This document shows positions 25,914 through 36,029 of a DNA stretch of 36,029 nt, in pieces; positions within the stretch are counted from its first letter, which is position 1; every line of letters begins with the position of its first letter. The stretch covers positions 1 through 36,029 of the forward strand of contig JAMOVG010000246.1 of NCBI GenBank assembly GCA_027061725.1, read 5' to 3'. The DNA is from Desulfobacteraceae bacterium (lineage in GTDB: Bacteria > Desulfobacterota > Desulfobacteria > Desulfobacterales > JALSRD01). Position numbers and translations under genes: made by a program. Below the pieces are notes generated by a model, which saw nothing but the letters and a program-made list of their open reading frames with translations, did not search any database and had not been told where the DNA came from.

Positions 25914-26252
25914 TCATCCCGTATCGGACCTGCAGCCGAGAGCGTCCTCGATGGCCTCTTCGAGTTCGAAGCGCGGCGGAATGGCATCGAAGTAGAGTTC
26001 GCCGTCGATGAAGAGGGATGGAACCGGTGCCAGGCGCACGTGGCGGTGAACGGCATCCCTGCCGAAAAGCGAATAGGACAGCTCGAGAAACCGCTGTTTG
26101 CCCTTGCCGATCATGAAATCCACCCGCCGGTATTCGACCTGGCCGGAATATTTCGGGATGACCTGCCGCACGGTTTCATCCATGTAGTAGCAGGGCAGGC
26201 AGTAGTCGGCTTTGTACATGACTTCAATGAGAATTTTCTTTTGAGACGTCAT
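25914..26252 (-). CDS. Thioredoxin-fold protein with CLPC active site
   Basis: ORF 25914-26309, likely Met at 26252; 'MYKADYCLPCYYMDETVRQVIP', cis-Pro loop 'VPSLFIDGELYFD'. Confidence 0.75.
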   Translation of the reverse strand: MTSQKKILIEVMYKADYCLPCYYMDETVRQVIPKYSGQVEYRRVDFMIGKGKQRFLELSYSLFGRDAVHRHVRLAPVPSLFIDGELYFDAIPPRFELEEAIEDALGCRSDTG

Positions 26253-26421: not shown

Positions 26422-27906
26422 ATGAACGACACAGGCCTGTGTTCGGGTTCGGACTATTGGCTTCCCCTGTCGGCGGCCGGAGGAAGTGACCGCGGTCCTG
26501 CCGGTTTCGGTGAGCAGGTCAGCGATTTCCTTCGCCGCCACGGCCGCCGTCCGCGTGTGCTGGTGGCCGACCTGGATGCCGGCTACAGCGAGGATGCCGT
26601 CCGGGGCGTGAGTTCCTGCCTGGCGGACATGGGGTTTGACGTGGATCTCGCGCCCGGCGGCATCTCCGCCCGGGATGCCGTCGAAATGGCGGTGGAAAAC
26701 GGCGATCATTTCATTTTGGTAATGCCGTGCGTCCAGGGGAAAACAGATCCCGCACAGGGGGAAGACCGGCGGTTCGAAGGGGTGAAAGTGGAGGATGTTC
26801 AGTTGGTGAACATCGAGGCCGCCGCGTTTCGGGATCTGTACCGTTCCTCCCAGGCGCCCGAGGTGCGGGATGCGCTGGCGGACCGGCTGGCGCAGGCCTT
26901 TGCTCCCCGGCTTTCACGGCTGCCGGCGAAGGTCCTTTCCGAAAAGTGCTACGTCGAAGGCCTGCTCGCCGGCAACCGGCGTGTCCTTTCCCAGGTGATT
27001 ACACTGCTGGAGAGCCGCCTGCCCGAGCATCGCGAGAAGGCCGAAGAGGTTGTCAGGAGGATACTCCCGAACACCGGAAAAGCGCTTCGTATCGGTATAT
27101 CGGGAGTCCCGGGGGTGGGAAAAAGTACTTTCATTGAGCGATTCGCCGCTAAACTGGTCGATGGCGGCCACCGTGTGGCCGTGCTGGCCGTCGATCCCAG
27201 CAGCACCAAGAGCGGCGGCAGCATTATGGGAGACAAGACCCGCATGTCCGGCCTCTGCCGTCGGCCCGAAGTGTTTATTCGCCCTTCGCCCTCCGGGGGC
27301 GCCCTGGGAGGGGTCGCCACCCGAACGCGCGAGAGCATGACGGTGTGCGAGGCCGCCGGTTTCGACGTTGTCATCGTGGAAACCGTGGGGGTGGGTCAGT
27401 CGGAGACGGCGGTAGCCTCCATGGTGGACTTTTTCCTGGTGCTGATGCTCGCGGGCGCGGGCGACGAAATCCAGGGAATCAAAAAGGGAATCCTGGAGCT
27501 GGCCGATGCCGTGGCCGTCAATAAGGCCGACGGCGACAACCTGGAGCGGGCCGAAGAGGCCCGCAAGGATTATGAATCCGCGTTGGGCCTGCTATTGCCT
27601 CCCTACCGTGCCTGGCGACCGGTGGTGCTGACATGCAGCGCCAAAACCGGGGCGGGGCTGGACGAGATATGGGAGACCATCTGCCGGCATCGCACGGCGC
27701 TGCTGGCCAGCGGAGAACTGGGCGCGAAAAAAAGGAAGCAGGCGGTGGCCTGGATGTGGGATCTGGTGGCCGAGGGGTTGCGGGAGCGCTTTTACCGCCA
27801 CCCCACGGTTGGCGAACGGCTCAGGGAAATGGCCGGGGAAGTGGCCGCCGGAAGATGCCTGCCCACCGAGGCCGCCCTGAAACTGCTTGCCTTGGCGGAG
27901 AAGTAA
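26422..27906 (+). CDS. MeaB/ArgK-type G3E GTPase with N-terminal degenerate B12-binding-like domain
   Basis: 'RIGISGVPGVGKSTFIERFAAKLVDGGHRVAVLAVDPSSTKSGGSIMGDKTRM', 'IVETVGVGQSETAV', 'NKADGDN'; N-terminal 'VLVADLDAGYSEDAVRGVSSCLADMGFDVDLAP'. Confidence 0.9.
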   Translation: MNDTGLCSGSDYWLPLSAAGGSDRGPAGFGEQVSDFLRRHGRRPRVLVADLDAGYSEDAVRGVSSCLADMGFDVDLAPGGISARDAVEMAVENGDHFILVMPCVQGKTDPAQGEDRRFEGVKVEDVQLVNIEAAAFRDLYRSSQAPEVRDALADRLAQAFAPRLSRLPAKVLSEKCYVEGLLAGNRRVLSQVITLLESRLPEHREKAEEVVRRILPNTGKALRIGISGVPGVGKSTFIERFAAKLVDGGHRVAVLAVDPSSTKSGGSIMGDKTRMSGLCRRPEVFIRPSPSGGALGGVATRTRESMTVCEAAGFDVVIVETVGVGQSETAVASMVDFFLVLMLAGAGDEIQGIKKGILELADAVAVNKADGDNLERAEEARKDYESALGLLLPPYRAWRPVVLTCSAKTGAGLDEIWETICRHRTALLASGELGAKKRKQAVAWMWDLVAEGLRERFYRHPTVGERLREMAGEVAAGRCLPTEAALKLLALAEK

Positions 27907-28273: not shown

Positions 28274-28564
28274 TCATTTTTCCTCGCAAATACGCATCAG
28301 ATGCGCGCGCAGTTCCTCGGCCGCGGGCGTCCGGTCGAAAACCAGTTCATCCTCCACGAGGATGGCGGGCACCGGAGCAGGCCGTCCCAGGCGGCGCGAG
28401 ATGTCGGCATAACGCATGGCCCCGGACAAGTCTTTGGTGTAGACGATATCGACCCGCACCTTCTCACCAAACTCGGGAACTACGGATTCGACCACCCGGG
28501 CCATATAAACGCAGGGAATTCAGTGCTGCCCCTCGTGCAGCACGGTCACTCGAACGGGGTCCAT
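28274..28564 (-). CDS. Candidate selenoprotein: thioredoxin-fold protein with UxxC (U-I-P-C) site; in-frame TGA at 28520-28522 (codon 15)
   Basis: ATG 28564 with SD agaggtg; MDPVRVTVLHEGQH-(TGA)-IPCVYMARVVESVVPEFGEKVRVDIVYTKD...; the ORF track gives only the part downstream of TGA (28274-28504). Confidence 0.85.
28486..28506 (-). promoter_or_regulatory. Candidate bacterial SECIS hairpin for TGA 28520-28522
   Basis: mRNA AUAUGGCC-CGGGU-GGUCGAAU: 5-bp upper stem including wobbles, loop CGGGU starting 22 nt after UGA. Confidence 0.55.
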
Positions 28565-28566
28565 TT

Positions 28567-29484
28567 TCACCTCTGGTTCAGATACGCCATCACGTGGCTG
28601 GCGGCGCGGGCGCCGTCGGCGCAGGCCGTCAGGACCTGGTAGAGGTCCGTGTCGCGTACGTCTCCGGCTGCGAAGAGCCCTGCGAAGGAGGTCATCAAGC
28701 GCCCGCCGGTAATCAGATAGCCCTCGGCGTTCCTGTCGACCGCCATGTCCAGATAATCCGTGTTGGGCTGCCAGCCAACGGCCAGGAAAACGCCGTCCAC
28801 GGGTATTTCCTCCGCCGAACCGTCGGCACGCGTCACCAGCACGGCCTCTACCTGCCCGGAACCCCGCAGCCCGGTAACGGTCGTGCTTTCCATGGTGGTG
28901 ATGTTATCACGCGCGTCCACCTGGGAACGGTGGGCGGCATCCACGGGCATTGACGGCAGGCGGCAGATCATGATGACTTCCCGCGCCACCCTGGCGATCG
29001 TCAGGGCGTGCTGGGCGGCGGCGTTGGTCCCGCCCACGACTGCGAGCACGGCATTCTTGTCGCGGTAAAGCGGACCGTCGCACACCGAGCAGAAGTGGAC
29101 ACCCCGGAGGTCCGTGCCAATGCCCGGCAGCAGTTTCGGTGTTCGGCCGGTGGCGGCGATGGCGGCCGGTGACCGGTATGTGCTTCCGTTGACGTCGATC
29201 CCCCGGAAAAGTCCCTCCCGGAAGGAGAGGCGTTGCAGTCGTGCCATGGGGAAGAAAGCGCCCTCCTGCTGGGCCTGGGCAAACGCCAGCGTCCCGAATT
29301 GCGTGCCCGACACATCCCCCACCAGGCCGGGAAAATTGGTCAGGGCTTCGATCATGTAGACACTGCCGCCGGGCACGTCACCGAAGACCACCGTTTTCAA
29401 TCCCAATCGCTGGGCGAAGACGGCGGCCGTAATGCCTGCTGGTCCCATGCCGGCGACCATGAGGTCATAGCGGCTTTCATCCAT
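28567..29484 (-). CDS. Thioredoxin-reductase-like FAD/NAD(P)-dependent oxidoreductase
   Basis: ORF 28567-29493; 'DLMVAGMGPAGITAAVFAQRLGLKTVVFGD', 'FCSVCDGPLYRDK' redox CxxC, 'GLFAAGDVRDTDLYQVLTACADGARAA'. Confidence 0.9.
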   Translation of the reverse strand: MDESRYDLMVAGMGPAGITAAVFAQRLGLKTVVFGDVPGGSVYMIEALTNFPGLVGDVSGTQFGTLAFAQAQQEGAFFPMARLQRLSFREGLFRGIDVNGSTYRSPAAIAATGRTPKLLPGIGTDLRGVHFCSVCDGPLYRDKNAVLAVVGGTNAAAQHALTIARVAREVIMICRLPSMPVDAAHRSQVDARDNITTMESTTVTGLRGSGQVEAVLVTRADGSAEEIPVDGVFLAVGWQPNTDYLDMAVDRNAEGYLITGGRLMTSFAGLFAAGDVRDTDLYQVLTACADGARAASHVMAYLNQR

Positions 29485-29549
29485 TGGAAACATCCCTCCC
29501 CGGTTGTCGCCGGATTGGCGATGGAGGGCCCATCCCGGAGCGGCGGCGG

Positions 29550-29909
29550 TTATTGCTTGGGTTTTTTGACCACCACCAGCAGCATCTTGAAGGGGGTCAC
29601 CGCCTGGACGGAGTGGGGAATGTCTGCCGGCATCACCACCACCTGTCCGGTTTTGGCGGGCACCTCCTTGCCGCCGATGGTCAGCAGCACCTCACCGTCG
29701 AGCACCTGCACCAGGGCATCGCCGGGTGCCGCGTGCGTGCTCAGCCCCTCGCCCTGGTCGAAGGCGAACAGCGTCACGCTGACGGCGTCGTTCTGGGCCA
29801 GGGTACGGCTGACCACGCGCCCCTGCTCATAGTTGACCAGGTCCACGAGCGTGTGGGCTTCTGAAAAGGGGATATTCTTGATCAACGGCATCTTGTCCAT
29901 AACTTGCAT
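29550..29909 (-). CDS. Cupin-domain protein
   Basis: 'GEGLSTHAAPGDALVQVLDGEVLLTIGGKEVPAKTGQVVVMPADIPHSVQA'; start overlaps the upstream stop (TGATG). Confidence 0.9.
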   Translation of the reverse strand: MQVMDKMPLIKNIPFSEAHTLVDLVNYEQGRVVSRTLAQNDAVSVTLFAFDQGEGLSTHAAPGDALVQVLDGEVLLTIGGKEVPAKTGQVVVMPADIPHSVQAVTPFKMLLVVVKKPKQ

Positions 29910-30946
29910 CACGCGTCTCCCTGTTGCGGCTGAAAGGGCTGGTAAACCCCCCGGTTGATCCAAGGGCCGTCCCTGACGACGGCTTCAATGTCATCCATGA
30001 CCGGCGGCGGTGCGATGAACACAACGGTATTCCGGTTCTCCACCTCGGCGGGCGTCCGTTCCGTCGGTTCGATGGTCCAGTCGCCCATCACGTAGCTGAA
30101 GAGCACCACCCGCCCGTTTTCTTCCAGCAGTCCCTTGGCCCTGAGAACACCGGCCGGCAGCCGCTCGGCCATGGAGCGGACTTCGGCCAGGTCTTCTCCC
30201 GTCCACTGGTAGGCGGCCGAAACGAGCAGGTCCGGCGGTGTGATCTCCAGGTCCGGGCTGTCGAGCATCTCTTCGATAAAGCTTTCCAGTTCTTCATCCG
30301 ACAGCTTTCGCTCTTCGGGGCTTTCGCTACCGGCCGCTGCGGGTTTAGCATAGTCCGGACCGAAGAATTTTTCCAGTGGAATATCCGCGAAGGTCGTTTC
30401 GATGAACAGTGGGTCCGGGTGAAATTCGGCAATCACCTTTTTGGTCTCGGCGATCTGTTCCGCAGAGGCCAGGTCGGTCTTGTTGATGACGAACACGCTG
30501 GAGGACGCGATTTGCTTTTCCAGAGAGGCATAGACCCCGTAGGCGTCCAGGAAGTGGGCCGCATCGATGACGCAGAACTGTTCCTCGAACTGGAAGCGGT
30601 CGTTGAAAATGGGCAGCTTCAGGTCTTTTTTCAGGTCCGAGGGATTGGCCACCCCCGTGGATTCGATGAGCAGTACGTCGGGCTGGAATTTGGTGTTCAG
30701 CTCGTAAAGTCCCTTGATGAAATCGGTCTTAACGCAGACGCAGAAGATGGAACCCTTGCTGATTTCCATCATGTCGATGTCTTCGCCTTCCACCAGGCTG
30801 CCGTCCACCCCGACTTCGCCGAATTCGTTGACCAGCAGGGTAAGCTTTCGCTCCGGCGGGAAGTGTTCGATGATGCGGTTGAGCAGCGTCGTTTTGCCGC
30901 TGCCCAGGAAACCGGTGATCAGGTAAACGCGGGTGACATCTGCCAT
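29909..30946 (-). CDS. CobW/YjiA-type (G3E) metallochaperone GTPase
   Basis: 'VYLITGFLGSGKTTLLNRIIEH', 'DVLLIESTGVANPSDL', 'FVINKTDLA', CxC 'GSIFCVCVKTDF'. Confidence 0.92.
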   Translation of the reverse strand: MADVTRVYLITGFLGSGKTTLLNRIIEHFPPERKLTLLVNEFGEVGVDGSLVEGEDIDMMEISKGSIFCVCVKTDFIKGLYELNTKFQPDVLLIESTGVANPSDLKKDLKLPIFNDRFQFEEQFCVIDAAHFLDAYGVYASLEKQIASSSVFVINKTDLASAEQIAETKKVIAEFHPDPLFIETTFADIPLEKFFGPDYAKPAAAGSESPEERKLSDEELESFIEEMLDSPDLEITPPDLLVSAAYQWTGEDLAEVRSMAERLPAGVLRAKGLLEENGRVVLFSYVMGDWTIEPTERTPAEVENRNTVVFIAPPPVMDDIEAVVRDGPWINRGVYQPFQPQQGDA

Positions 30947-30949
30947 GGG

Positions 30950-31195
30950 TCAGAGTCTTTCTTCGATGATGGTTTTGATCTGGGCGACGGTGGGGACTTT
31001 GCCGGTGGAGACGACTTCCCCGTCGATGACGAAACCCGGCGTCAGAAAAACCCCCTTCTGCGCGAAATACTGAATGTCTTCCACTTTGACGATCTCAATT
31101 TCGGCTTTGTCAGCCAGTTCGGCCGCCGCCGCACGGCAGTTTTCATAGAGCTGGCTGCAGCGCTGGCATCCGGAACCCAGGATTTCGATTCTCAT
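30950..31195 (-). CDS. Thioredoxin-fold redox-active disulfide protein (CQRC)
   Basis: 'MRIEILGSGCQRCSQLYENCRAAAAEL...TPGFVIDGEVVSTGKVPT'. Confidence 0.9.
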   Translation of the reverse strand: MRIEILGSGCQRCSQLYENCRAAAAELADKAEIEIVKVEDIQYFAQKGVFLTPGFVIDGEVVSTGKVPTVAQIKTIIEERL

Positions 31196-31278: not shown

Positions 31279-31572
31279 TCAGGTCTGCAACGGCGTTGCA
31301 ACGCCATTTTGGGCAATGTCGACGATGTTCAGGCAAAACTTGCAGACCCCCAGGCGGGTTTCCCCATCGGCGAGGCGGTCATACAGGTCCCTATAAACCG
31401 AGACGTCTCTTTCGGACAGAGAGGTCAGGGACCCCGGCGGGTCCAGTTTGCGCAGGCGGTCTGATTTTCCACAGTAGGGGCAGGTGACCCCGTAGAGAGC
31501 CATGTCGGTCTGGGGCAATCCGTGATAGATGATGACCTGCCTGAATTTTTCGATGACATCGCTGGGTTTCAC
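31279..31572 (-). CDS. Small zinc-ribbon protein (CPYC...CKFC)
   Basis: 'YGVTCPYCGKSDRLRKL' and 'RLGVCKFCLNIVDIA' form a Cys4 site. Confidence 0.75.
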   Translation of the reverse strand: MKPSDVIEKFRQVIIYHGLPQTDMALYGVTCPYCGKSDRLRKLDPPGSLTSLSERDVSVYRDLYDRLADGETRLGVCKFCLNIVDIAQNGVATPLQT

Positions 31573-31656: not shown

Positions 31657-32058
31657 CTATTCTACCTTGGAATCCGTGCGGGTGCTGAGGCCGGCACCGG
31701 CTTTCTTCAGGTTCTCCTGGATTTTGTCGAATTCGAACCCGACACCGCGCAGGGACTTGATGCGTTCGCGCATTTCATCCGTCGGCGCGCGCGCGGCCAT
31801 CTCGTCAATGAGTTCCTCGTATTGCGGAATGATGCTTTCGAAGACGAGATCTCCCTCGATGCAGATGGTCGGCAGCACCTTGCCCTTCAACTCCAGGAAC
31901 TTTCCGATGCCGTCTTTGTTTTTAATAGACCACTCCTTGTATACGATCATTTCCTGAACATCGGTGGGCAGGGCGGCAATGGATTCCATCATGTAGCCGC
32001 AGGCCGCGCACTGCACACTGTCGAGCGTCAAGACATCTATGTGAATTTTGTCCGCCAT
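31657..32058 (-). CDS. Thioredoxin-fold protein with CAAC active site
   Basis: ORF 31657-32091, Met 32058 with SD gggagg; 'LTLDSVQCAACGYMMESI', 'LPTICIEGDLVFES'. Confidence 0.8.
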   Translation of the reverse strand: MADKIHIDVLTLDSVQCAACGYMMESIAALPTDVQEMIVYKEWSIKNKDGIGKFLELKGKVLPTICIEGDLVFESIIPQYEELIDEMAARAPTDEMRERIKSLRGVGFEFDKIQENLKKAGAGLSTRTDSKVE

Positions 32059-32084: not shown

Positions 32085-33119
32085 TTACCAAGATTCCGGA
32101 TACTTGGCATAGTACTGCTCAAACCAGTCGCGGGCTTCGATGGCCTGGTCCATATGTTCCACCGGAACATCGTAGGGCATATCTCAGCCGGGGGCGAACG
32201 TGTATCCGTGCTGACCTCCTGCAGCCAGGCTCACGATGGCGTCCTCGCGCGGCGACAGCAGGCCGAGGCTCAGGGCCAGCGTCAGCTTGAGGTTTCCGCC
32301 GAACCCGACCTTGTGTTCACGGGCCAGGTCGCGGATGAAGTTCATGTTCATCTGCTCGTCGATGGCGAAGCCGTGGGTGCCGATGGTGCAGACATCCTTC
32401 ATCACCTTGGTGGCGTCGCCGCAGATAAAGAACGAAGAGGTCATGCCGGCGTCGTGGATGACCTTGATGGCCGGCTGTGAGTTGGGGGTCACGTACTTCT
32501 GGAAGGTTTCGGACTTGATCTGGGACGCGACCGGGTCGACGATGGCAATGATCTCGCAGCCCATTTCGGCATAGAAACCCGCGGCGATGGCTCCGATTTC
32601 ACCCGCGAACTTGCACACCTCCGAAGCGAATTCCGGATTCTTGTACACGTCCGTGAAGATCCGCACACCGGCCAGATGGGAGGCCAACGTCAGCGGTCCG
32701 CAGAAGAGGCCCATCAGCACGCAGTCCAGTTCGTCGAGTTGGGGCTTGGCGATTCTGGCCGCCTCGAACAGGATCGGCCAGCGTCCCGAATCCTTGGTCG
32801 GCATCTGCAGGCCGGCCTCGGCGGGCGTTTTGTCTGAGCAGGGGTGGGTTTTGACGGAAGGCACGTTGTCGGGCCACCATTTCAGTTCACACCCCACGGA
32901 GTGGGCTTCCACCGACAGGTCGAACACCAGGGGGATGCCGTCGGCCTTGTAGCGCTTGGCGGTGTGGACGACACCCTTTGCCAGCAGTTCAGGGTCCTGC
33001 AGCATCTTGTCGGCGGGTTCATTGATCAGAAAAGCACAGTGAACACCTGCATAAGGCACCCACGGGGGCTTTTCGGTTCTTTTCCCCCGGTAGGCGTCAA
33101 TGAGCATCTGTTTGGCCAT
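32085..33119 (-). CDS. Candidate selenoprotein: UroD/MtaA-family (uroporphyrinogen decarboxylase-like methyltransferase) with in-frame TGA at 32184-32186 (codon 312)
   Basis: ATG 33119 with SD ggagggg; ...GGQHGYTFAPG-(TGA)-DMPYDVPVEHMDQAIEARDWFEQYYAKYPESW-TAA; the TGA occupies the family's conserved C-terminal zinc-ligand Cys (PGC-x-x-P). Confidence 0.88.
32154..32170 (-). promoter_or_regulatory. Candidate bacterial SECIS hairpin for TGA 32184-32186
   Basis: mRNA AUGUUCC-GGU-GGAACAU: perfect 7-bp stem, GGU loop starting 21 nt after UGA. Confidence 0.75.
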
Positions 33120-33147
33120 TGTTACCCCTCCTTGTGTTGCTGATGAA

Positions 33148-33252: not shown

Positions 33253-33849
33253 CTATTGCAGCAGAATGATGCCGTAATAGCTGTAGCTTTCGTTCTTGTG
33301 AGACGCCACCCGCGGGGATATTCCCAGGTTCTTCAGGGTGCCGATGACATCGATGGAGAACGATTCGATGGAAGGACGCTTCTCCTGGGGAAAATGACAG
33401 CCCTCGGGATATGCGCAGGTCTTGCACAGCGCACAGCATTCTCCCACCAGGCTGAAGGCCTTGTAGTACCCCTTGAGAAAAAGCATGCGCTCCAGGCTGA
33501 CGGTGCCCTTCCAGCAGCGCACCTGCTTGGTCCGCTTGCGGTTGTTGTTGAGGTAGAAATCCACGCAGCTGGTGCTGCCCACCAGCAGCAGTGCCAACGA
33601 GTACTCGTTAACGATGGCTTGGGCTTTTTCCGGATCCGGCGTGGCCGGCGGACAGCACCAGCTGGTATTGTACCGGCTGCAGCCGTATCGGCACTTGAGC
33701 TGCACCCACTGGGCCACGACGATCTTGCCGGTCGAAAAGGGGAATACGGCGTTCAGTCCGTATTGCTTCCCCTTCTGCAGGAGTTGCTGGACCAACTCTT
33801 GGGAAATTCCCTCTCTGGTTTTGAACGGAATCACTTTCTGAATTTTCAT
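33253..33849 (-). CDS. DUF2284-like Cys-rich metal-binding protein
   Basis: MKIQKVIPFK start overlaps the upstream stop (ATGA); 'KCRYGCSRYNTSWCCPPATPDPEKAQ', 'GECCALCKTCAYPEGCHFPQEKRPSIE'. Confidence 0.85.
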   Translation of the reverse strand: MKIQKVIPFKTREGISQELVQQLLQKGKQYGLNAVFPFSTGKIVVAQWVQLKCRYGCSRYNTSWCCPPATPDPEKAQAIVNEYSLALLLVGSTSCVDFYLNNNRKRTKQVRCWKGTVSLERMLFLKGYYKAFSLVGECCALCKTCAYPEGCHFPQEKRPSIESFSIDVIGTLKNLGISPRVASHKNESYSYYGIILLQ

Positions 33850-34220
33850 TTCGGGTCGTCTTTGCTTCCGACACAGTCTTCGAACCGGATGTGGACCGGC
33901 CTGGGCAGTGCCATTTCCATGGCTACCTCGGCGGTTTTGAGGACAGCCGCCGGCACCACGCACGAAGCATGGCAGCCGGCCTGCTGTGCCGCCAGGTAGA
34001 CCGTGTTGCGGGTAGCAGGTGCAAACAGTTGCTGCAGCGTGATGGTGTCCAGCTTCTCCGCCATCTGCCGGATCTGCTGGCACTCGGTTTCATCGATCCG
34101 CAGGGTCACTTTACGGGCTTCGGTTCTGCGTGCCCGGATCCGGCAGCTGAACCCGCAGACCCCGGCCTCGATGATCGTGCAGCTTTCCGCAGCTGCCGTC
34201 GTTTTCGCATTTTCCGACAT
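33846..34220 (-). CDS. Conserved hypothetical Cys-containing protein (CGFSC motif) in a corrinoid gene cluster
   Basis: 'CTIIEAGVCGFSCRIRARRTEARKVTLRIDETECQQI...GCHASCVVPAAVLKTAEVAMEMALPRPVHIRF'; coupled by ATGA to the DUF2284-like gene. Confidence 0.65.
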   Translation of the reverse strand: MSENAKTTAAAESCTIIEAGVCGFSCRIRARRTEARKVTLRIDETECQQIRQMAEKLDTITLQQLFAPATRNTVYLAAQQAGCHASCVVPAAVLKTAEVAMEMALPRPVHIRFEDCVGSKDDPK

Positions 34221-34237: not shown

Positions 34238-36029
34238 TTACTGATTCAGGATCTCATCGGGCACGATGCCCTTGAGGTGCGGGAATTCGTCCGTCATGTG
34301 GGGAAGCTGCATGGCTTCCATGAACTCCTGCTGGAAATTGGGCTCGACGGTCAGTTCGATGTATTCCACGTTGCGCGAGCACCAGTTGGCTTCCACCCGC
34401 TTCTTGACGTTCAGCAGGGCCGCCCGGCAGCCGTCGCCGGCGGCGTTGCCGACACTCTGGATTTTGTCGATTTCACAATCCGGAAAAAGCCCCATGATCA
34501 ACGCTTTTTCCCGGTCCACGTGGGTGCCGAAGGCGCCGGCGATCTTGACCGTGTCGACTTTTTCCAGGCCCATGCGTTTGACCATCAGTTTGCAGCCGGC
34601 ATACAGCGCCCCCTTTGCCAGCTGGATCTGCCGGATATCCTTCTGGGTGATGACGATGTCCTTGCCGATGCTCGACTCCTCGGCCCAGGCTAGCACGAAC
34701 TCGGGCTGCTTGGTGTCGGGGTTCTTGCGAAAGCGCGGGTGCCCCTTGAGCGCTTTCTTGTTGAACACGCCGCTCTTGAGGATCACGCCGGAGCGGTACA
34801 GCTCGGCCAGAACGTCCAGGATGCCGGACCCGCAGATGCCCTTGGCCTTCATCTCCTTGGGTTCCGAGAACTTTCGCCAGGCCTCACGGCCGATGACCTT
34901 GTAGTCGACCTCCTTGGTCTCGGGGTCGATCTCGATGCGCTCAATGGCCCCCGGCGCCGCACGCATGCCGAAAGCCAGCTGGGCGCCTTCGAGGGCCGGG
35001 CCCGTTGCACACGACGACGAGATCAGCTTGTGGCGGTTTCCGAGCACCAGTTCTCCGTTGGTTCCGATGTCGATGATCAGCTGATTTTCCTCGTGCTTGT
35101 AAGGTTCCTCGGCGATCAGGACCCCCACGTTGTCGGCCCCCACGAAGCCGGCCTCGATGGGCAGTACGAAAAGATACGTGGAGGGGTTGACCTTGATGCC
35201 CAGATCCCGCGCCTTGATGTCCATGCTGTGGTGGATCACCGGCGGGAAGGGCGCCAATCCGACGTATTCAGGGTTCAGGGCCAGGAAAATGTGATGCATG
35301 GCCGTGTTGAATCCGATGGTGATGTCCTCGATGTCCTCGATGCCTAGGCGCAGGTATTCTTTGCCCTCCTCGGGTACTTCGACATACTCGTCCGGACCCT
35401 CCTCGCCCTTTTTCTTTTTCTTCTTTTTCTTGGGCGGGTGGGTGCTGGCCACGGCTTTTGCGATCAGGTCGTTGACCCCTTCTATGATGTCGTCGCTCAT
35501 GCGCTGCAGGCCGTCCGGAGTGGTCATGTGATAGGTGATGCGCGCCATGACGTCCTCGCCGTATTTGCACTGCGGATTCATCATGGAGACGGTTTCGATG
35601 ACTTCCATGGTGTTCAGGTCGCACAGGTAGCCGGCAACCGTTGTGGTGCCCACGTCGATGGCGATCCCGTAAGCGTACTCTGCGCGACCCGGCCGTACGC
35701 GGATGACCTCCTTTTCGTTCCAGACGCTGACCGTGACGCTCCAGTCGCCCTCCCGCAGGGCGTTGGGCAGCTGGCGCAGGGTAAAGATGTCGATGGTCAG
35801 ATTCTTGAGGCCGTAATCCCTTTCCAGGCCGCGGCAGACCCTTTCAAAGTCGGCGGTGGGCTCTTCGAAGGTCGGCGCATCGACTTCCACGTAGTAGGTG
35901 CGCACCGCAGGATTGTGCTCGATGTGGATGTCCCGGGCCGCCTTGCTGACCACCTGCTTTCCGGCCCTGGATTCCTCGGGAACAAATACCAGGATATCGC
36001 CTTCCACCTTGGCGACACAGCCCAGCCGG
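34238..36029 (-). CDS. RACE/RamA-type corrinoid activation protein (ASKHA-domain, DUF4445-like), N-terminus truncated by right window edge
   Basis: 'YGIAIDVGTTTVAGYLCDLNTMEVIETVSMMNPQCKYGEDVMARI', 'LIIDIGTNGELVLGNRHKLISSSCATGPALEGA', 'GICGSGILDVLAELYRSGVI', 'KIAGAFGTHVDREKA'; frame open through 36029. Confidence 0.9.
   Translation of the reverse strand, partial: RLGCVAKVEGDILVFVPEESRAGKQVVSKAARDIHIEHNPAVRTYYVEVDAPTFEEPTADFERVCRGLERDYGLKNLTIDIFTLRQLPNALREGDWSVTVSVWNEKEVIRVRPGRAEYAYGIAIDVGTTTVAGYLCDLNTMEVIETVSMMNPQCKYGEDVMARITYHMTTPDGLQRMSDDIIEGVNDLIAKAVASTHPPKKKKKKKKGEEGPDEYVEVPEEGKEYLRLGIEDIEDITIGFNTAMHHIFLALNPEYVGLAPFPPVIHHSMDIKARDLGIKVNPSTYLFVLPIEAGFVGADNVGVLIAEEPYKHEENQLIIDIGTNGELVLGNRHKLISSSCATGPALEGAQLAFGMRAAPGAIERIEIDPETKEVDYKVIGREAWRKFSEPKEMKAKGICGSGILDVLAELYRSGVILKSGVFNKKALKGHPRFRKNPDTKQPEFVLAWAEESSIGKDIVITQKDIRQIQLAKGALYAGCKLMVKRMGLEKVDTVKIAGAFGTHVDREKALIMGLFPDCEIDKIQSVGNAAGDGCRAALLNVKKRVEANWCSRNVEYIELTVEPNFQQEFMEAMQLPHMTDEFPHLKGIVPDEILNQ

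Follow-up and report, generated by a model that had tools for sequence, protein, structure and literature searches.

The gene at positions 28274-28564 (minus strand) of the window, by which is meant the whole 36,029-nucleotide stretch of Desulfobacteraceae contig JAMOVG010000246.1 that was analysed, encodes a selenoprotein of the HUIPC family, in which selenocysteine (Sec) occupies the nucleophilic position of a redox motif set within a predicted thioredoxin fold. The first-pass annotation, made from the raw sequence, had placed a candidate Sec-containing thioredoxin-like protein at these coordinates, and both its observation and its reading were right, although it left out the strand. The identity is borne out by the NCBIfam model NF047660 ('HUIPC motif thioredoxin-like (seleno)protein'), which the product matches over positions 2-90 of 91 and with a score of 136.7 bits (cut-off 105), and by the presence of the family motif H-U/C-IPC in the form HUIPC. 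The family has already been catalogued, in Table 1 of a 2026 review (PMC13188914) that credits it to Haft and Tolstoy (2025, mSystems 10:e0141724), and the find is therefore correct but not new in kind: motif and length are those of the NF047660 family, both Sec and Cys forms are known, and the protein itself is no different. What is added is a family member with a clear genomic context, and this context links the family with a cluster for corrinoid methyl transfer in which small thioredoxin-like proteins abound, so that a testable role can be proposed. It is also an instance of a first reading of raw sequence picking out a true selenoprotein whose redox motif is dropped by plain ORF calling.

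Translation of the minus strand with the TGA read through yields the 96-residue product that had been predicted, MDPVRVTVLHEGQHUIPCVYMARVVESVVPEFGEKVRVDIVYTKDLSGAMRYADISRRLGRPAPVPAILVEDELVFDRTPAAEELRAHLMRICEEK, the N-terminus of which can be written MDPVRVTVLHEGQH-U-IPCVYM. The ATG (28562-28564) follows the stop codon of a TrxR-like gene (28567-28569) after a gap of two bases, an arrangement that had been described correctly together with the AGAGGTG sequence that precedes it. The statement that the gene is missed by ORF calling holds for plain calling with table 11, which returns just a 76-aa fragment from MARVV and thus loses the redox motif; at NCBI a model for this family exists already. 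The features of the gene are the following.

28274..28564, minus strand: HUIPC thioredoxin-like selenoprotein gene, 96 aa and TGA stop
28520..28522, minus strand: in-frame UGA for selenocysteine at residue 15, which opens the UxxC motif (the codon is TGA in 19 distinct orthologs and encodes Cys in 12)
28490..28502, minus strand: bSECIS hairpin core GGCC-CGGGU-GGUC, its loop beginning 21 nt after the UGA (19/19 UGA genes, 0/12 Cys genes)
28568..28574, minus strand: AGAGGTG, probably the ribosome-binding site, which overlaps the stop codon of the TrxR-like gene (read from the sequence)

The evidence that this UGA is a sense codon is comparative. HUIPC orthologs are present in six of 58 relatives (51-61% identity), and every one of them contains exactly one in-frame stop, TGA in each case and located at this very codon; the CLPC paralogs beside these six orthologs have no in-frame stops. 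Among GTDB genomes 28 loci were detected, of which 16 have UGA at the Sec position and 12 have Cys. With duplicates merged and a phylum sample added, the distinct genes number 19 for UGA and 12 for Cys, and among these the codon at the Sec position is TGA or Cys and nothing else. The same UGA in 19 distinct orthologs from many genomes means that no sequencing error is involved, and a search for Cys homologs, as the annotation had proposed, is answered by the 12 distinct genes with Cys at the UGA codon. Some of these Cys forms come from Bacillota (Desulfofundulus, Desulfotomaculum and others), the rest from a separate group within the Desulfobacteraceae. UGA and Cys forms fall mostly in separate clades, and the tree as built calls for two changes between them, of which the well-supported branches force one only. 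On the 5' side of the UGA, residues H10, E11 and G12 do not vary among the first seven sequences, and for E11 and G12 this holds in 29 of 29. Mismatch at codon positions 1/2/3 is 0.32/0.19/0.62 upstream of the UGA and 0.31/0.24/0.62 downstream (third-position divergence of 0.617 and 0.616, respectively), and the same coding constraint therefore acts on both sides; conserved residues and coding-like divergence ahead of the UGA exclude the notion that homologs start only at MARVV. The claim that TGA replaces the first, nucleophilic Cys also stands: in the alignment that had been offered (C-LPC-YYM, C-AAC-GYM, U-IPC-VYM), which is right, Sec lines up with the first Cys of the CxxC motif in the neighbouring CLPC and CAAC proteins.

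The genome, a MAG of 410 contigs (4.07 Mb, 97.6% complete), holds a tRNA-Sec (76.1 bits, over the Rfam cut-off), SelA (620.9 bits, over cut-off) and SelD (363.4 bits), the last with a Sec UGA of its own in GCGUAAK. The concern that the genome might have no Sec machinery is thus answered by these three components, but SelB was not found in the 410-contig assembly, the SelB winged-helix model likewise giving no match. The best apparent SelB match, on contig C248, turned out to be EF-Tu, and other weak matches, named from their sequences, were IF-2 and further translation GTPases. SelB scored over its cut-off in nine of the ten genomes examined, among them a same-genus genome (387 bits), and only the window assembly was without it. 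Since SelB is present in the same-genus genome and in all eight others checked, its absence is likely an assembly gap; no close orthologs of the genes flanking SelB in the same-genus genome were found in the window assembly either, which fits a gap but is not proof of one. The same-genus genome itself has no HUIPC match although SelB is present, and the gene is therefore patchy even within the genus.

Two other readings of the UGA can be weighed against this background. Were it a true stop or a sequencing error, the gene would start at ATG 28504 and specify 76 aa (MARVV...) without a redox motif, which is the very ORF that plain calling yields, and the lack of SelB in the assembly would be in keeping with it; yet the recurrence of the UGA across many genomes, the conserved and coding-like stretch ahead of it, and the exchange with Cys at that codon in 12 relatives already refute this reading by comparison, and we consider it highly improbable. 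That UGA has been reassigned throughout the genome to an amino acid other than Sec is more improbable still, as it has nothing to its credit beyond the read-through itself, whereas a tRNA-Sec is present and the alternative residue in orthologs is Cys. It was rejected because neighbouring genes in the window end in ordinary UGA stops, past which read-through enters unrelated frames.

The signal that would accompany Sec decoding can be recognised in the coding sequence. The published bSECIS model calls for a stem of at least 4 bp, located 16-37 nt after the UGA, that carries a small apical loop with G within its first two positions, mostly N1-G-[G/U]-N-N2 (PMC13188914). The hairpin of the window gene, a 4-bp stem with the 5-nt loop CGGGU 21 nt past the UGA, conforms to this model in loop and spacing, and in the general form G[GA]CC-[CA]G[GU][GC]U-GGU[CU] it occurs, fully paired and at the fixed place 21 nt after the UGA, in all 19 UGA genes and in none of the 12 Cys genes. 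At this position 100% of cells are paired, compared with 0-63% in slid structures. Codon choice within the hairpin is similarly restricted, residue 22 (A/T) being encoded by GCC or ACC in 19 of 19 UGA genes (background use 0.44/0.52) and V25 by GTC in 18 of 19 (background use 0.29). The stem is short, each of its variable pairs has changed on a single side without a compensatory exchange, and the contrast of 19 to 0 is not phylogenetically independent, since UGA and Cys forms belong mostly to separate clades. Free energy was dropped as evidence because the 56-nt region downstream of the UGA, folded alone, does no better than shuffles (z = +1.16) and because generic bSECIS hairpins also occur in Cys genes, so that generic criteria do not separate the two; the fixed-position hairpin was compared between Sec and Cys genes instead. 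Folding the core by itself (-3.9 kcal/mol, z 0.04) gives no advantage over shuffles, and in the window gene a stretch of 35 nt reaches -8.0 kcal/mol (threshold <= -7.5), but several orthologs have weaker values and shuffles fold equally well. The zero matches returned in the window by Rfam at gathering threshold say little, because bSECIS has no single strict Rfam family.

With regard to the protein, the AlphaFold model (pLDDT 96.6) has elements in the order E-H-E-H-E-E-H, a predicted beta-alpha-beta-alpha-beta-beta-alpha arrangement in which helix 1 begins with the redox motif, as in the thioredoxin fold, and Foldseek searches with this model return thioredoxins at a TM of about 0.7 and 13-23% identity. 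On this modelled structure it is a thioredoxin-fold protein that lies outside the thioredoxin Pfam families proper: PF00085 gives no match at E up to 1, and Thioredoxin_3 (PF13192) and TIGR00411 score 17.3 and 21.2 bits, below cut-offs of 24.8 (gathering) and 92.75. With classical thioredoxin (PF00085, CGPC) and its Sec form it has in common the fold, the N-terminal position of UxxC and an adjacent TrxR-like gene, but it differs in its length of 96 aa, in having UIPC rather than CGPC, in its low identity (about 13-23%) to PDB thioredoxins and in the missing PF00085 match. The nearest solved structures by sequence are the small archaeal thioredoxins 1fo5 and 1nho (5.9e-06), which together with TIGR00411 and PF13192 represent proteins of similar small size, though scores with these models remain below cut-off. 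The CLPC and CAAC paralogs share the fold family and the CxxC-x-YM motif; unlike HUIPC they have Cys in all distinct copies seen (16 and 17, respectively) and fall below the NF047660 cut-off.

The gene lies in a cluster in which the following neighbours were identified.

25914..26252, minus strand: CLPC thioredoxin-like paralog (Cys form), usually adjoining HUIPC in relatives (NF047660 71.3 bits, below cut-off)
28567..29493, minus strand: TrxR-like flavoprotein with a CSVC redox motif, immediately upstream (Pyr_redox_2 1.1e-27; TIGR01292 217.5 bits, below cut-off 343)
29550..29963, minus strand: cupin-domain protein (PF07883 44.2 bits)
29909..30946, minus strand: CobW/COG0523-type GTPase (PF02492 136.7 bits)
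30950..31195, minus strand: Thioredoxin_3 (MTH895/ArsE-type) small protein (PF13192 81.4 bits; TIGR00412 83.5 bits, over cut-off)
31279..31572, minus strand: small Cys-rich protein, conserved in the cluster (ORF list, relatives' clusters)
31657..32058, minus strand: CAAC thioredoxin-like paralog, beside the MtaA-like gene (alignment, NCBIfam scan, neighbourhood comparison)
32184..33122, minus strand: MtaA/CmuA-type (UroD-fold) corrinoid methyltransferase homolog (TIGR01463 112.3 bits, below cut-off 235)
33253..33849, minus strand: DUF2284 metal-binding protein (PF10050 148.4 bits)
33846..34220, minus strand: DUF6951 protein (PF22263 97.2 bits)
34238..36007, minus strand: reductive activator of corrinoid proteins (RACo type), truncated at the end of the contig (PF14574 314.3 bits)

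The TrxR-like gene and the cluster are kept around many HUIPC orthologs, the recurrent members being RACo, DUF6951, DUF2284, the MtaA-like protein, CAAC, the small Cys-rich protein, Thioredoxin_3, CobW, the TrxR-like protein, CLPC and HUIPC. A CobA/CobO-type adenosyltransferase is encoded close to the recurrent cluster, and in Desulfofundulus B12-binding proteins occur within it. On the plus strand of the window, 26422-27906 encodes a MeaB GTPase whose N-terminal part is B12-binding-like, aa 31-100 matching methylmalonyl-CoA mutase, and such a fusion is also seen near some other HUIPC loci. In Desulfofundulus australicus three tandem genes for tiny thioredoxin-like or thioredoxin-sized proteins (CRKC, CPSC and PPCTG; L050:5133-5937) lie upstream of a Cys-form HUIPC gene. 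A viral scan found no relatives. MtaA-type methyltransferase homologs and a corrinoid reductive activase also characterise the type 1 mlp clusters, which have been linked to Sec use and to methyl-sulfur and methyl-selenium metabolism (Kountz and Balskus, PMC10418091). The type is marked by Mlp1-3 methyltransferases with a corrinoid protein and an activase, of which the MtaA-like protein and RACo of the window cluster may be counterparts; the terms Desulfo-, CobW and RACo do not occur in that paper, and 'thioredoxin' occurs once, in a reference title.

Taken as a whole, the explanation that we hold to be very probable is that SelB and Sec-tRNA would read the UGA at 28520-28522 as Sec, guided by the hairpin at 28490-28502 inside the coding sequence, and that the product would act as a thiol/selenol oxidoreductase of thioredoxin fold, 96 residues long, with UIPC as its active site. 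The Sec15 selenol would attack a disulfide or another oxidised substrate, and Cys18 would resolve the resulting selenenylsulfide. Gene order points to the TrxR-like flavoprotein, encoded two bases upstream, as the most likely source of electrons, and it is gene order again that suggests that the substrate has its place in an anaerobic pathway of corrinoid methyl transfer, perhaps one that handles methyl-sulfur or methyl-selenium compounds, of which HUIPC may reduce a disulfide or selenenyl component. A different role could be envisaged for the same Sec-containing protein, whereby HUIPC and its siblings CLPC and CAAC would serve to bind or carry a metal, a corrinoid intermediate or a Se/S group for the methyltransferase cluster, UxxC being the ligand site. 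The embedding of the gene with RACo, the MtaA-like protein, CobW and DUF2284, the presence of several tiny thioredoxin-like proteins in one cluster, and the ties of some other selenoprotein families to organometallic chemistry (families listed in PMC13188914) would all suit such a role, but the UxxC spacing and the predicted fold are those of classical oxidoreductases and a TrxR-like gene lies directly upstream, and we regard a ligand-binding function as unlikely.

In the clusters of relatives HUIPC is accompanied by two further groups of thioredoxin-like genes with an in-frame UGA. A group with the motif QU[AILTV]ACVYM(AE) comprises 23 listed genes (one of them a second, shorter version of another), all with UGA, and includes L083, L023, L036, L049:7193-7468, L051, L055 and L062; the window genome has one such gene (L083), away from the window on contig C244 (10182-10469, minus strand). 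The LLTDQUASGxYM group consists of six genes from Desulfofundulus, Desulfotomaculum and other Bacillota, again all with UGA (0-based positions L049:7536, L050:7525, L051:7539, L052:7536, L056:7638 and L057:4636); it is without the second Cys of CxxC, and its hairpin is of the same type as that of the QU[x]AC group. In the latter, CGGUAAAGGCUUUACCG is an example of the SECIS-like hairpin, and most members have a covarying hairpin. Across 21 aligned sequences, from which the divergent members L081 and L106 were left out as they do not have it, the hairpin at 28-45 nt from the UGA start has 95% of cells paired, against 26-50% in slid versions, and exchanges of A-U to G-C and of C-G to U-A affect nine cells, more than in any of 500 shuffles. 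Neither group is matched by an NCBIfam model at cut-off, the best score being about 44 bits with NF047660 (members with printed scores), far below the cut-off, and in a literature covered in part no paper naming either group was found; for selenoprotein curators these siblings may be a more useful lead than HUIPC itself. In a reading to which we give somewhat less than even chances, HUIPC would be one of at least three Sec thioredoxin-like groups at work for a single conserved cluster of corrinoid methyl transfer, present in Desulfobacterota and in sulfate-reducing Bacillota, and together they would form a dedicated Sec-based redox relay of an uncharacterised methyl-sulfur or methyl-selenium pathway.

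An in-frame UGA was also noted elsewhere in the window genome, in a [NiFe]-hydrogenase large-subunit homolog (L121; contig C22, 10539-12182, minus strand). It is seen in one sequence only and is possibly a sequencing error; a stem CUGUCCUC-GGU-GAGGGCAG follows it, the loop lying 23 nt on, and shuffles of this stem fold equally well. The UGA is codon 64 and falls in the N-terminal motif RSCGV-U-TYTH; in known [NiFeSe] enzymes Sec is located in the C-terminal motif.
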